The notes beneath the pieces were generated by a model. It was not told where the DNA came from and did no database searches. It worked only from the letters and a program-made list of their open reading frames with translations. A stretch of DNA of 64,000 bases from NCBI RefSeq assembly GCF_000400935.1, contig NC_021280.1, forward strand, positions 806,001-870,000, given 5' to 3'. The stretch is from Spiroplasma chrysopicola DF-1 (lineage in GTDB: Bacteria; Bacillota_I; Bacilli_A; Mycoplasmatales; Mycoplasmataceae). Both the position numbers and the translations under genes were made by a program. Of this stretch, positions 6,827 through 14,286 are shown one piece after another (the stretch's first letter is position 1; each line of letters starts with the position of its first letter).

Positions 6827-6893
6827 GAATACCTAAAATAAAATAGACACATAAAAAGTTACTTATGTGTCATAATTTTATTGAAAGGTATTC
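6827..6893 (+). promoter_or_regulatory. IS left-end long hairpin covering the transposase start region
   Basis: Three paired blocks make a 25-bp imperfect hairpin: GAATACCT with AGGTATTC, AATAAAAT with ATTTTATT, and GACACATAA (6846-6854) with TTATGTGTC (6863-6871). The Shine-Dalgarno-like GAAAGG lies in the 3' arm. A transcript entering from outside would carry both arms and could hide the site; one starting at the circle-junction promoter would lack the outer arm. The same sequence is in the other copies. Confidence 0.7.
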
Positions 6894-6900
6894 TTTTATT

Positions 6901-8076
6901 ATGGGAACAAAATGATTTACAAAAAACGAAAAACTTAATATTTTAAAATATTACAAAGAAAATGGTTGAGCAAAAACAATTAAAAAATTTGAAATTTCAA
7001 CACCAACTTTATCTCGTTGAAAAAAGGCAGTTAAAATTAGTGGAGAAAAAGCGTTAGAACCAGGAAATGGTCTACAATCTAAAGGAATTCGTCGACCAGG
7101 GCGTCCAAAAAATCTTAATTTTGAATTAATGACAAAAAAAGAATTAATTGAGTATATTGAAATGATTCAAGATGTAAAAAAGTCCTTGCCCAAATCGAAA
7201 AAGAAGAAATTTCAAACGATTTGGTCCTTAAAGAAAAAATACAAAATTAAATATTTATGCAAAATTTTAAATGTTTCTAGAGCTGGTTATTATAAATGAT
7301 TTAATGCTGGAATGAAACTTTTTAATAAATGGAATAATACAATTGCAAAAATAGTTAAAACGTTATTTCTAACTTTTAAGAAAATTTATGGATATAATAT
7401 GTTAACACTAATTATTAATAAACTATATAATTGAAATTTAAAACCTCATATTGTCTATAGATATATGAAAAATATGAATTTAAAATCAATTATTAGAATA
7501 AAAAAATTTAATTATAAATTATCTTCTGGTAACAAAAGACATGAAAATATCATGAATCAAGATTTTTCAACCACAGATATTAATCAAAAAATAGGAACAG
7601 ACATAACATATTTATTAACAAGCGACAAAACCTATTTTTTATCAATAGTAAAAGACTTTCATACTAATGAAATTTTGGACTACCAAATCAGTAATAATTT
7701 AGAAAAAGAATTTGTCTTTAAAAACATAATTAATTCTTGAGTAAAAGCTGGAAAGCCATCAACTTGAGTTCTACAATCAGATCAAGGTTTTCATTATACA
7801 AATTCTGATTATGAAAAATTATGCAATTATCTTGGAATTACGATTTCAATGTCCAGACGTGGAAACTCTTATGATAATGCCCATACAGAATCATGATTTG
7901 GTACTATGAAAACTGAATTTTTATATCATATAAAAAGAAAAAAACGAACAGCCAAATGAATTATTGAAAATCTACCTAAATATATCTATTTTTACAATAA
8001 TTTTAGACCACAAGCCAAATTAAAAGGAATGAGTCCTGTTCAATACAGAAAATCATCCCTTCAAGTAACTTTTTAA
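6901..8076 (+). CDS. IS3-family transposase, in-frame OrfAB fusion (copy 1)
   Basis: 391-aa DDE transposase with an N-terminal helix-turn-helix (about residues 6-50), a short coiled-coil-like stretch near residues 76-95, a Lys-rich joint, and an rve integrase core. Catalytic residues are D234 (GTDITY), D294 (QSDQG) and E330 (TESWFG), with the usual 35 residues between the last two. UGA is used repeatedly for Trp, so it is adapted to code 4. The tract A AAA AAG at codons about 92-94 is a -1 slippery heptamer; slipping would end in a short OrfA-like tail. Confidence 0.95.
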
Positions 8077-8145: not shown

Positions 8146-9522
<1,377 letters not shown>

Positions 9523-9555
9523 TTCTATTTTTCTCCTTTTTAACCTAATAAATCT

Positions 9556-9584
9556 ATTATATTCCTTGTCTTTCAAATAGTAAA
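9556..9584 (-). promoter_or_regulatory. eno promoter
   Basis: On the minus strand TTTACT (9579-9584) and TATAAT (9556-9561) are separated by 17 bases, about 30 bases before the enolase ribosome site. The -10 is a perfect consensus match and the -35 matches 4 of 6. Confidence 0.7.
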
Positions 9585-9634: not shown

Positions 9635-9659
9635 AAAAGTTTAATTTAATTAAACTTTT
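9635..9659 (-). terminator. mgtA terminator
   Basis: Stem AAAAGTTTAA/TTAAACTTTT with a 5-base loop, followed on the minus strand by a T-rich run. It overlaps the last bases of mgtA. Confidence 0.7.
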
Positions 9660-12360
9660 ATAATCATTTTTTAAAGATTTTAATATAACCCATTTTGACT
9701 AACTGACTAAGTAGACAGTAACTTATAATTATGGCAATTACAATTCCAATAAATGAATATGGTGGTGAAACCATGCTCATATTTGCTCCTAAAACTGTAA
9801 ATGGTATTGTAAAGCCTATTGCACATAATAGTCCGGTCATGACATTAACTGGCCATGGTGAACGCGATTGAATAAATGGAATTTTTTCTGTTCGGAACAT
9901 TTGAACAACTAAAATTTGTGTTAATAGTCCTTCGATAAATCATCCGGCATTAAACATTGCTATTGCTGATGGGTCATCAACATGATTTTTAACATCATAG
10001 CCAATATATAAAACAGCAAAGGTCACAATATCAAAAATTGATGATACTGGGCCGTTAATTAAGGCAAATGGTAAAAAGTCTTTTGTGGTTCAACGCTGGG
10101 GTTTTGCTAAAAAGCTACTATCAACCCGATCAAAGGCAATCGCAAATTGGGAAATATCATATAATAGATTTTGGAATAATAATTGAACTGGCATCATTGG
10201 GGTAAATGGTAATCATGCTGAAGCAACTAAAACACTAAAGACATTACCAAATTGCGAAGCAATGGTAATTTTGATATATTTTAAAATATTACCAAAGACT
10301 TTTCGCCCTTCAACGATTCCTTCTTCAATTACATTTAAAGATTTTTCTAATAAAATTAAGTCTGATGCTTCTTTAACAATATCAGTGGCATTATCAACTG
10401 AAATTGCCACATCACTTTGGCGAAGAACTGGGGCATCATTAATTCCATCCCCCATATAACCAACAACATGGTTATTCATTTTTAAAGCTTTAATAACTTC
10501 AACTTTTTGAATTGGTGTTAATTTAACAAAAATGTTATTTTTTTCAACAATTTTTGCTAACTGTTCAGGGGTCATTTTTTCAATTTCACTTCCTGAAATT
10601 ACCCCTTTGATTTTTAAATTAATTCGTTTACAAATAGCGCGAGTTACTTGTTCATTATCCCCTGTTAAAATTTTCAAATCAACTCCATAATGGGCTAATG
10701 ATTTAATCATTCCCGCGGCTGATGCTTTTGGTGTATCTAGAAAACTAGCAAATCCACAGAAAATTAATTCTCCTTCAGCGCTATCAATAAAATCATCAGT
10801 TTTAGCCTGTAAATTTTTGTATGCTAATCCTAAAACACGTAAACCTTGTGAATTTTGATCATCAACAGTACTTTTGATCTGACGCATCATACTATCATCT
10901 AATGGCACTATTTTACCTTGATATTCAACATACTTACATGTACTTAGAATTTCTTCAACAGCTCCTTTACTAATGACAATTGATTCATCGTAAGCTGTTT
11001 TAACAATTATTGTTAAGCGACGACGGTGAAAATCAAAAGGAATTTCATGAATTTTTTGATAAGCATTAGTTGTAATAGTTAAATTATTTTTATCAATATA
11101 ATTTGTAATAGCTGAATCTAATGGATTACGAATTCCGGTTTGATAAAAGGCATTTAAATATAATAGTTTAAGCAAATGTTCATTATTTTTATTATCTAAA
11201 GTACGATAATCAACTAGTTCAATATTGTCATTTGTAATTGTCCCTGTTTTATCGGTACATAAAACATCAATTGCTCCTAAATTTTGAATTGCACTAAGAT
11301 TTTTAGTAATAATTTTTTGCTGGCTTAATTTTTTTGAACCACGGGCTAAATTTGATGTAACAATCATTGGCAACATTTCTGGTGTTAACCCAACCGCTAT
11401 TGAAATCGCAAAAACTAATGAAGTTGTTCAATCATTTTTTGTTAATCCATTTAAAACTAAAACAATTGGCACCATTACTAACATAAAAATAATTAATAAG
11501 AATGTTACTTTTTTAATTCCTTTGGCAAAACTAGTTTGCGGGCGGCGTTCAGAAATTGTTTCAGAAATTGATGAGAAATAAGTATTCTCTCCCGTAGCAA
11601 CAACAACTCCTAAAGCATTTCCTGAAACAACAGTTGTTCCCATTAGACAAATATTTTCAAAATCAATAAAATTATTTGTTTCCTGATAAAGATCTTGTTT
11701 TTGAACTGGTAAAGATTCTCCTGTTAAACTTGACTGATTAATTAATAAGTTATTACTTAAAATAACTCGCACATCAGCTGGGATAACATCACCAGTTGCT
11801 AAATGAATTAAATCTCCTGGAACTAATTCATTCGCGCTCATCTCTGTTCCATATTTAATAAATTCAAACTCATTATTACGATTAATTTCATTTGTTGTTA
11901 AATATGGTTCGCGAATGACAATCGTTTTTTTACTAATAAACTTTGTTAATTTTTTTGCAATTAAATTACCACGAATTGTTTGAATGTAAGTAAATGTTCC
12001 ACTTAATAAAATCATTCCTCCAACAATACAAGCTGCTACTAAATCAAAAATTGAAGGTTCATCTTCTGAAAAGTAACTATATAAACTGTAGGTAGTAATT
12101 AAAAGCAAAATGATATTAAACGGACTAAAATAACTTTTAAGAAATTCCCATCCCCAAGGAAACTTTTTTTCCTTAACTTCATTTTTACCATACTTGGCTT
12201 GACGATCTTGCACTTCTTTTTCGCTTAATCCATAACTGGCAATTTTAAATTCATTTAATAGTTCTTCTTGACTAGCTTTGGCATTTTTTCGAATTTGTTC
12301 TTCATAAGCATAAATATGCTTTTTCTTTTTATGTTTATGAAAGAAATTAGTTTTTCTCAT
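9658..12360 (-). CDS. mgtA: P-type Mg2+ transport ATPase, MgtA/MgtB type
   Basis: 900-aa P-type IIIB ATPase importing Mg2+ across the membrane; length matches MgtA (about 898). Visible: the TGES actuator loop (SSLTGESLPVQ), the phosphorylated Asp at residue 370 in TDKTGT, the nucleotide-domain loop LTGDNEQVTRAI, the hinge GDGINDAP, and membrane helices at the N-terminal third and the C-terminus. Several UGA Trp codons split it under the standard code. Start 12360 follows GAGGGAG. A structured leader with a small ORF lies upstream (12435-12540). Confidence 0.95.
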
Positions 12361-12434
12361 ATTTAATCTCCCTCTAGTACTTGATGTTCATCAGACTTTA
12401 TAGGGAACCACAGAAAAATATTAGTTTACAACAA

Positions 12435-12530
12435 CTAAAAAAGTGGTTTTACCGCAGTAACCTCTGAATCACATCAATTAATTAAATTAATGTCTGATAA
12501 TTTCCTTTCGGAATAACCGGATACTACCAT
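12435..12530 (-). CDS. Putative 31-aa leader peptide upstream of mgtA
   Basis: The ORF begins MVVSGYSERK and ends TAVKPLF, reading one UGA as Trp. Its ribosome site AAAGGAGGTG is a full anti-SD match 7 bases from the ATG, stronger than that of mgtA itself. It begins a few bases after the predicted transcription start and ends 74 bases before mgtA. Its first and last bases pair with each other, so its translation would change the RNA fold. I know no homologue, so it could instead be a structured RNA with a chance ORF. Confidence 0.5.
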
Positions 12531-12540
12531 AAAACCACCT
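12441..12540 (-). promoter_or_regulatory. Structured mgtA leader RNA (candidate attenuator or riboswitch)
   Basis: An 11-bp helix joins the leader SD region (AGGTGGTTTTA, 12530-12540) to TAAAACCACTT (12441-12451), which is followed by six T residues. It encloses two hairpins: TTCC-GAAA-GGAA with a GNRA loop (12502-12513) and a 9-bp stem (12471-12493). A second GTGGTT at 12406-12411 could compete for the AACCAC arm. I could not match it to the M-box consensus. Confidence 0.5.
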
Positions 12541-12557
12541 CCTTTAACACTTTTTTT

Positions 12558-12586
12558 ATTTTAACAAAATTTAGAGGTTATTGCAA
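12558..12586 (-). promoter_or_regulatory. mgtA promoter
   Basis: TTGCAA (12581-12586) and TAAAAT (12558-12563) are 17 bases apart on the minus strand, placing the RNA start about 10-15 bases before the strong leader SD. Confidence 0.7.
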
Positions 12587-12638
12587 CCATAATTTAAAGA
12601 TTGATGGAATAAATTATGTGGTTGTTGAGGCATATTTT

Positions 12639-12669
12639 TAAATGCTTATTTTTGCATTATAAGCATTTA
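12639..12669. repeat. 11-bp inverted repeat with 9-base loop
   Basis: TAAATGCTTAT (12639-12649) and ATAAGCATTTA (12659-12669). Neither side is followed by a T-run, so it is not a clear terminator. It lies in the roughly 260-base gene-free stretch between the mgtA promoter and the UPF0236 relic, where I see no other gene. Confidence 0.6.
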
Positions 12670-12788
12670 GAAGATGAATAGTCTTATTTACTTATATTTA
12701 TTAAACCATTTTTAGTAAAAATTACAAGACAAAAAAGCACTAGTTTTATAAATTAGTTAATAATTTATTAAATTGCTAAATTAATATG

Positions 12789-14286
12789 TTAATTTTTACT
12801 AGTTAATGTATGTCGAACTGCCCTGGCAAATGCTCTGTTCTTTGATTTTAAAATTGGTACAGAACCTTGCTTTGGAATATATTCTTCATCAATATTGTTC
12901 TTTACTCAAATATTTTGAAAAAAATAATTCTTTCTAGCTTTAATTTCATCATTATAGTCATTGATAATAATTTCAATTGGATCTCATCCATTTACTTTGG
13001 CTATTCTCATACTTAACATATTGGAAAATGTTCTTTTACTATATGCCTTAACACTAAGACTTTAAAGATTTAACATTATGTGAAATTTGAGATTCAGTTT
13101 GTGAACCAATATAGTATTTTTTACTATAATTACTAATTCCTTCTTTGTTATTTTTAACATATTTTAAAAGTTCTTGAATTTGAGCATTTTTATGTCTTAA
13201 AAACACAAATTTATTTTGATAAAGTGGTGTTAATAAATCTTCAATGTATTTTATTAAATTAGTTACATCACCATTCTTAATAAATGCTTCCAAAGTCATA
13301 ATATATTGCTCGCTTTTTAATTTCGACTGAATTTAAATAACCTTTTGTTTTTAGTTTAAACCTACGAAAACTAAAACATTGATGTAAATATTTTTTTAAA
13401 TGAAATTCATCTAAAACAATATCAGAATGAAATTGAGATGCAATTGTTTTAATTCATGATGCACCATCCCCTAGAATAATAAGTTTTTTATTTTTTAATT
13501 CATAGTTTTCATTTAGAAACTTATACAATTTTTGATCATAATTGTGTAATTCATTTTTTCCTTTATCATTTAAAATCATAAATAATTTTTTATCTCTTAA
13601 AAATCTACGATTATTAATTGACTTTTTTTCATCAAAACCGGTATGGGCATACGCCATCCGGATTGTACTTTTACTAATTTCTTTCTTTCGTAATTTTTTG
13701 TTGTAATTAAAAATATTGGTGTACGTATCATCAACTCCCACATACAAATATTTTTCTTTGGACTTAATTTTTTCTTATCAAAATTAGCACAAAAATTATT
13801 ATACTCTTACAAATTAATACTTCGATTAATGTTTGAAATTGTCATTAATGAAATTTCTGAATACTTATATTTATCTAAAATATCGCGGTAGCGTTTACCA
13901 CTATCTAATTCTTTCAATATTTTAATATATAAGTCAAAGTGTAGTCGCTGATAAGGTTTACGGCCAATTTCAACATCTAACAAAAATGCATATTTATGTT
14001 TATACTCTTTTCGATCATAATATCGGAATCTTGTTCTTTCATAAGTAACTGGTCCTCATTCAATAATTAAAGTGGCTGGACGCTTACCATAAAGAATATA
14101 TCCTTTATTATTATTTGAGTATTTTTTACGTAAATGTAAATCTAACTATTCATAGTACTCTTAAATAGCTTTTCTAGTTTTATTTTTAACTTCTTCTTCA
14201 AAATCTTCGAACATTTTAATTTGTTTAAAGATATTTTGGGAATAGTCATTTTGATACAAAGAAAAGTTAATACTATTTTGGTACAT
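12789..14286 (-). pseudogene. Degenerate UPF0236 / Mbov_0401-type transposase-like gene
   Basis: Pieces in different frames add up to one protein: N-terminus from ATG 14286 (MYQNSINFSLYQND), stops near 14160-14170, then a segment with YGKRPATLIIEWG, a core with VGVDDTY and GDGASWIK followed by VLDEFHLKKY, a frameshift near 13300, another near 13050, and a C-terminus ending at 12789. The D-x-D, GDGASW and DEFH pattern is that of the UPF0236 proteins found in mollicute integrative elements. It is certainly inactive. No companion ICE genes are here. Confidence 0.75.

Follow-up and report, generated by a model that had tools for sequence, protein, structure and literature searches.

A conserved leader open reading frame and competing RNA helices suggest translation-coupled attenuation of the magnesium importer gene mgtA in Spiroplasma chrysopicola and its relatives

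The mgtA locus and its leader

The window analyzed here is the whole 64,000-nt stretch from positions 806,001 to 870,000 of the Spiroplasma chrysopicola DF-1 genome, which consists of one contig of 1,123,322 bases. On the minus strand of the window lies mgtA (9658..12360, translation table 4; start codon ATG at 12360), which encodes a magnesium-translocating P-type ATPase of 900 aa and is an equivalog of NCBIfam TIGR01524 (1048 bits vs. a cut-off of 611). Directly upstream of the mgtA promoter region are short adjoining ORFs that look like broken pieces of a transposase (12789-13983, minus strand), and a 403-aa ORF resembling an IS3-type transposase with an integrase core (6865-8076, plus strand) neighbors eno (8146-9576, minus strand). 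S. chrysopicola also possesses two further mgtA-like genes (L037, 944895-947570, and L043, 664461-667115) for which no leader ORF was found; three Mg2+-type P-ATPases thus occur within a 1.1-Mb genome.

The initial annotation of this DNA had described a promoter, a near-perfect Shine-Dalgarno sequence (SD), a 31-codon ORF, a helix, a T6 run and two inner hairpins ahead of mgtA, and all of these elements are present on the minus strand. The promoter is of the sigma-70 type, with a -35 box (TTGCAA, 12586-12581) separated by 17 nt from a -10 box (TAAAAT, 12563-12558). This call is supported by comparison with Spiroplasma syrphidicola, since sequence agreement between the two species begins at approximately the -35 box and does not extend beyond it in the upstream direction. 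The leader SD, AAAGGAGGTG (12545-12536), is of full strength, and the leader ORF, MVVSGYSERKLSDINLINWCDSEVTAVKPLF (12530-12435), comprises 31 codons and is open only if TGA is read as Trp. Like the T6 run and the SD of mgtA itself (below), the promoter and leader SD are assigned on the basis of sequence.

The leader SD, its spacer and the start codon (region 1, 12543-12525) can pair with the end of the ORF (12456-12438, part of region 2) in a helix termed P1, and this pairing is supported by covariation among 13 groups of leaders and within a set of 21 leaders. In S. chrysopicola, P1 comprises 18 bp with one mismatch (duplex -20.3 kcal/mol, z -5.5), and the 11-bp helix between SD and ORF end in the initial annotation, although real, is only its middle portion. 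The T6 run, a possible intrinsic-terminator tract, is present at the 3' end of P1 (12442-12437); it lies partly within P1 and extends into the leader stop codon. The inner hairpins are TTCC-GAAA-GGAA (12513-12502) and ACATTAATT...AATTGATGT (12493-12471), and the 3' arm of the latter doubles as the first segment of a second long-range helix, P2. The 5' strand of P2 (region 2) consists of TTGATGT (12477-12471), TCAGA (12467-12463) and AACCAC (12448-12443), which pair with ACATCAA (12387-12381), TCTGA (12395-12391) and GTGGTT (12411-12406), respectively, in its 3' strand (region 3). The competing GTGGTT noted previously is therefore real, but constitutes just one of three segments. The P2 duplex is predicted at -24.7 kcal/mol (z -2.9) in S. 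chrysopicola and -26.1 kcal/mol (z -4.4) in S. syrphidicola. Its 5' strand (12477-12443) overlaps the P1 3' strand, and by computation the two helices are mutually exclusive. Overlapping the 3' region of P2 is an anti-SD, TTCCCT (12402..12407), that can pair in a predicted helix, P3, with the mgtA SD, AGGGAG (region 4, 12368..12373), which is located seven bases ahead of the ATG. The segment 12420-12560 of the minus strand folds at -42.0 kcal/mol, compared to -22.1 +/- 3.2 kcal/mol for dinucleotide shuffles (z -6.27, 0/200), and the leader fold is not due to chance.

Conservation of the leader ORF and of helices P1 and P2

A scan of contigs gave hits only in Mesoplasma photuris and at a single distant locus of Clostridia, so the comparison set was built by searching genomes. 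It contains 46 mgtA leaders from the family of S. chrysopicola, divided by sequence into 13 dissimilar groups; relatives of mgtA were present in all 60 genomes of the family. Upstream of these genes a common layout recurs: a TATAAT-like -10 box, a strong, extended SD, an ORF of 23-44 codons, and ~17-100 nt to mgtA. In most leaders of the family the -10 box precedes the leader SD by about 20-25 nt and the extended SD, GAGGTG(A/G)T, is conserved. This layout is not shared by the first-copy mgtA leaders of the Citri clade, in some of which the ORF is broken. Citri-like first-copy leaders (L009-L014, L016, L019, L020, and L041) instead have a different conserved long hairpin, TTTAGGA...TCCTAAA, whose arms lie ~100-130 nt and ~52 nt before mgtA, and no leader ORF is common to all of them. 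This hairpin is possibly a second, unrelated type of mgtA leader in the same genus.

The frame that begins at the leader start is open for at least 23 codons in 46/46 leaders, compared to six for the +1 frame and three for the +2 frame. In the large groups, alignment gaps inside the ORF are multiples of three, apart from a lone gap of one column within the 3' strand of P1; a few further non-triplet gaps fall in the spacer before the leader ATG. The peptide itself is only weakly conserved, a point against the attenuator reading developed below. A recognizable copy of the S. chrysopicola leader peptide was found elsewhere only in S. syrphidicola (84% identical), which left layout and base pairing as the criteria for conservation. 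Between these two species the leader ORF shows four amino-acid changes and zero silent ones, and one extra T alters the end of the ORF. The ratio pN/pS was ~0.3 over codons 2-14 in three small groups (F, D, and L025/L026) and 0.7-1.3 in the two largest groups, A and C, where no strong selection on the peptide was found. Across leaders, the residues D, E and P account for 18% of codons 2-16 vs. 7% of later codons. Motifs like that of MgtL (DSPES, DNPES, EGPESES, DFPDPES, PEPEPGE, DNPEPYS, and DTPDS), ending near codons 12-15, occur in groups E and J. Early acidic/proline enrichment is clear in these groups and weak in the S. chrysopicola peptide, whose only early acidic residues are E8 and D13 and which has no early proline.

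Helix P1 was found in all 13 groups. Summed over 13 group representatives, the cognate duplexes reach -202 kcal/mol, compared to -141 +/- 11 kcal/mol when 5' strands are matched with the 3' strands of other groups (0/20000), and base pairs in the spacer (positions -7 to -1) interchange between A-U, U-A, G-C, C-G, and G-U. P2, which joins the distal part of the ORF (the 3' strand of P1 included) to the stretch just before the mgtA SD, sums to -210 to -223 vs. -126 to -130 +/- 12 for permuted strands (0/5000). Within 21 leaders of the Apis-clade/Mesoplasma type, covariation scores were 0.251 vs. 0.161 for P1 and 0.274 vs. 0.175 for P2 (each 0/500 shuffles), and both exceeded slid controls. In this set, part of codons 2-4 also pairs with the P2 5' strand, i.e., the intercistronic strand mimics the start of the ORF. 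The initial annotation would have been refuted had ORF and helix proved unconserved in other Spiroplasma mgtA leaders; the ORF frame, P1 and P2 are all conserved. Since peptides vary freely while layout and pairing are kept, the leader set amounts to a natural experiment on what the switch requires.

P1 recurs, with different peptides, in 13 mgtA leaders from three further families of the order (-178 vs. -116 +/- 10, 0/20000), although several of these are individually weak. Among leaders of families f3 and f7 (L089, L090, L091, L097, L099, L101, L102, L108, L109, L112, L115, and L116), the SD is again sealed by the distal ORF and the peptides differ, including MKKNDGERSYLL..., MNTHLSEQSSDYY... 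and MDICSHSSQPDEYYS.... In L099 and L101, GGTGAGC within the ORF pairs with a downstream GCTCTCC that is alternatively able to pair with the mgtA SD. When a covariance model built from the Apis-clade/Mesoplasma leaders was run against 15 chosen genomes, nine were reached, each with a single strong copy, located at mgtA. The model failed to reach the leaders of Spiroplasma, g9, g11 or g12; on sequence grounds, a single origin for all groups is therefore not established, and they may have converged.

Ribosome position and the mode of control

The cost of opening the mgtA SD was computed along the leader ORF, holding all RNA upstream of the ribosome's front single-stranded. Masking of a single ribosome footprint was dropped, because P1 closes around the footprint and the mask has little effect at mid-ORF. 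Without a ribosome, the predicted opening cost was 6.8 kcal/mol in S. chrysopicola and 6.9 kcal/mol in another leader of the set, L034. With ribosomes confined to codons 1-13 the cost was 1.4-5.3 kcal/mol in S. chrysopicola; early-codon ribosomes gave 0.1-0.8 kcal/mol in L034 and 0.3 kcal/mol in L029 and L031. In general, the cost drops by 2-7 kcal/mol with a ribosome up to codon ~12 and rises once the ribosome front has passed codon ~14, the start of the 5' strand of P2; in groups E, the switch flips near the codon at which the acidic/proline motif ends. Such switch-like behavior was predicted for 15 of 37 leaders, including that of S. chrysopicola, compared to 11 of 296 chimeras in which a leader's own 3' part was joined to a foreign ORF part (group-level Wilcoxon, P 0.006 and 0.002). 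The scan revealed no opening of the mgtA SD by early ribosomes in groups A, B2, C, and J. Reading these data as a switch is weakened by these four groups, by the deviating Citri-clade leaders, and by the fact that in S. chrysopicola the P2 state still costs 1.4-5 kcal/mol to open the mgtA SD. From the overall pattern we infer that full translation of the leader corresponds to off and early abortion or arrest to on.

A translation attenuator should have three alternative helices that share strands, and the leader does, P1 and P2 being conserved and P3 predicted. A ribosome early in the ORF should also free the second SD while one at its end should not, which is fulfilled by computation only, in S. 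chrysopicola and 14 other leaders. Translation-coupled attenuation, one of two readings offered by the initial annotation, is well supported, with compensatory changes preserving P1 and P2 alongside the ORF frame. We think it likely that the leader is a conserved attenuator of this kind, built of four RNA regions and controlling a Mg2+ importer gene. In the mechanism that we propose, the leader SD and start (region 1), the distal ORF (region 2), the post-stop stretch (region 3) and the mgtA SD (region 4) would engage in competing helices 1:2 (P1), 2:3 (P2), and 3:4 (P3). With no ribosome, P1 would form, P2 would be blocked and P3 would hide the mgtA SD; P1 and the T6 run might also terminate transcription. 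The very strong leader SD would keep ribosome entry high and so break P1. A ribosome finishing the ORF would then cover region 2 and prevent P2, such that mgtA stays off; one that aborts or stalls in the first ~12 codons would leave region 2 free, allowing P2 to form, P3 to break and mgtA to be expressed. Where the ribosome stops on the leader ORF thus probably decides whether the pump is made. The likely signal would be low Mg2+, under which ribosomes would drop off at early acidic/proline residues. That Mg2+ is the signal is inferred from the identity of the controlled gene, the presence of an M-box at the same place in a sister family, and enteric precedents. Abortion at early acidic/proline codons is likewise an inference, weakest for the S. 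chrysopicola peptide, and, in the absence of expression, ribosome-profiling or Mg2+ data, so are translation of the leader and the direction of regulation.

A transcription attenuator is the rival to be taken most seriously, although we consider it rather unlikely. Here P1 and the T run would form an intrinsic terminator, a ribosome at the leader SD would prevent P1 and allow the polymerase to continue, and the mgtA SD would not be the control point. In groups A, B2, and C every tested member has a run of T5 or longer at the P1 3' end, and so does S. chrysopicola's own group H, compared to only 13-15% of random positions in the same leaders; P1 is able to form once the ORF has been transcribed, and early opening of the mgtA SD is absent from A, B2, and C, among others. 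However, the T run is missing from groups D, E1, E3, F, G, I, and J and from the g16 leader, P1 encloses ~60-100 nt, which is long for a terminator loop, and the conserved P2 would be left without a role. In groups A, B2, and C, where SD control is lacking but P1 ends in T5-T6, the output may lie at the level of transcription. In S. chrysopicola, the SD switch and T6 occur together, and we infer that output may be both transcriptional and translational.

The remaining alternatives concern what is sensed. That translation-coupled attenuation answers not to Mg2+ but to a general translation signal, such as shortage of amino acids or charged tRNA, an antibiotic, or ATP, strikes us as improbable. 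Leader-ORF attenuators commonly respond in this way, and the leader peptides have no universal motif. Salmonella mgtM and mgtP were reported to be responsive to ATP and charged tRNA-Pro (PMC8092293). On the other hand, the peptides have no run of a single codon, the controlled gene is always a Mg2+ pump, and mgtA was the site of the one strong copy in each genome that the covariance model reached. Still less credible to us is a new riboswitch, with Mg2+ or some other ligand bound by the RNA itself and the ORF reduced to an incidental or secondary role. Short conserved stretches, e.g., ATTCC(T/A)TCC, in Apis-clade/Mesoplasma leaders could be taken to favor it, but part of that stretch is accounted for by P1 pairing, no conserved core is common across groups, and the reading frame is kept open in every leader of the set. 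The sister family does have mgtA under a true riboswitch, the M-box. No Rfam family accounts for the present leader, however: an Rfam scan of the 64-kb stretch and 20 leaders revealed no riboswitch at the mgtA leader, and the M-box model (RF00380) had no match at E up to 1 in positions 11000-14000 and found nothing in the 60 family genomes, whereas control genomes gave matches. The initial annotation was thus correct that the M-box does not match; its other suggestion, in which the RNA alone would sense the ion, lacks direct support, yet is not excluded.

Relation to known magnesium leaders and attenuators

In the sister family of the same order, the M-box precedes mgtA with scores of 107-134 bits. 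Genomes of this family (f5; L077-L080 and L084-L087; 1.0-2.1 Mb) have two mgtA copies, some with an M-box and others with a leader ORF (MTDSDSIYN...) and P1, while L085 and L086 retain only a terminator-like hairpin. One of them, G102, combines an M-box copy (L087) with a second copy (L080) whose leader, read only in part, resembles the leader-ORF type of L077-L079. More tentatively, and with the balance of evidence falling just short of even, we suggest that Mollicutes possess an order-wide class of leader-ORF Mg2+ switches, independent of MgtL and MgtQ, in which the ribosome is the Mg2+ sensor and which replaces the M-box or stands beside it before mgtA. Mollicutes have few transcription regulators. 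If correct, this would be a ribosome-based Mg2+ switch for a Mollicutes importer, convergent with the enteric one, and a riboswitch and a leader-ORF attenuator would be documented at the same place before the same gene. No description of a leader of this kind from Mollicutes emerged from a literature search that did not extend to subscription journals. The switch also appears to be carried by L113, apparently Mesoplasma florum, a safe, near-minimal model in which it could be tested.

The M-box (ykoK leader) shares with the present leader its gene and its place in the sister family; it differs in having no leader ORF, and RF00380 is unmatched in S. chrysopicola. Translation attenuators of the erm/cat type in Gram-positive bacteria have a leader ORF with its own SD, and the position of the ribosome selects helices that hide or free a second SD. 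The mgtA leader, as proposed here, resembles them in both respects, although erm and cat answer to antibiotics and the genes and sequences differ.

The closest parallels in operation are enteric. In the case of MgtL, low Mg2+ causes ribosome drop-off at EPDP, which turns mgtA on, while completion of the peptide leaves it off (PMC11282234). As in Salmonella and E. coli, the present ORF, whose translation is inferred, lies directly upstream of mgtA, and many of the leaders show early acidic/proline enrichment, weak though it is in S. chrysopicola. In contrast, its sequence is unrelated, its helices are other ones, and its SD is sealed by its own 3' end. Enteric output also relies on Rho-dependent termination, a feature for which S. 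chrysopicola offers no support: its genome gave no match to Rho above the family cut-off, only weak ones of 40 and 25 bits that we take to be F-type ATPase subunits. With no detectable Rho, an output of the MgtL kind is unlikely. In Salmonella mgtQ, of the mgtCBRU operon, stems 1:2, 2:3, and 3:4 together with acidic residues control mgtB (PMC8092293). The topology is the same as that proposed here, a ribosome in region 1, as predicted here, frees the ribosome-binding site of a Mg2+ transporter gene, and acidic residues promote this in mgtQ (PMC8092293). However, mgtQ has 8 aa and is intercistronic, whereas the ORF described here comprises 23-44 codons, opens the mRNA at its 5' end, is unrelated in sequence, reads TGA as Trp and often has a T run after stem 1:2. 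The earlier statement that enteric mgtA leaders are unrelated in sequence thus holds: the mgtA leader of S. chrysopicola probably works like mgtL and mgtQ, and by sequence is a member of neither.
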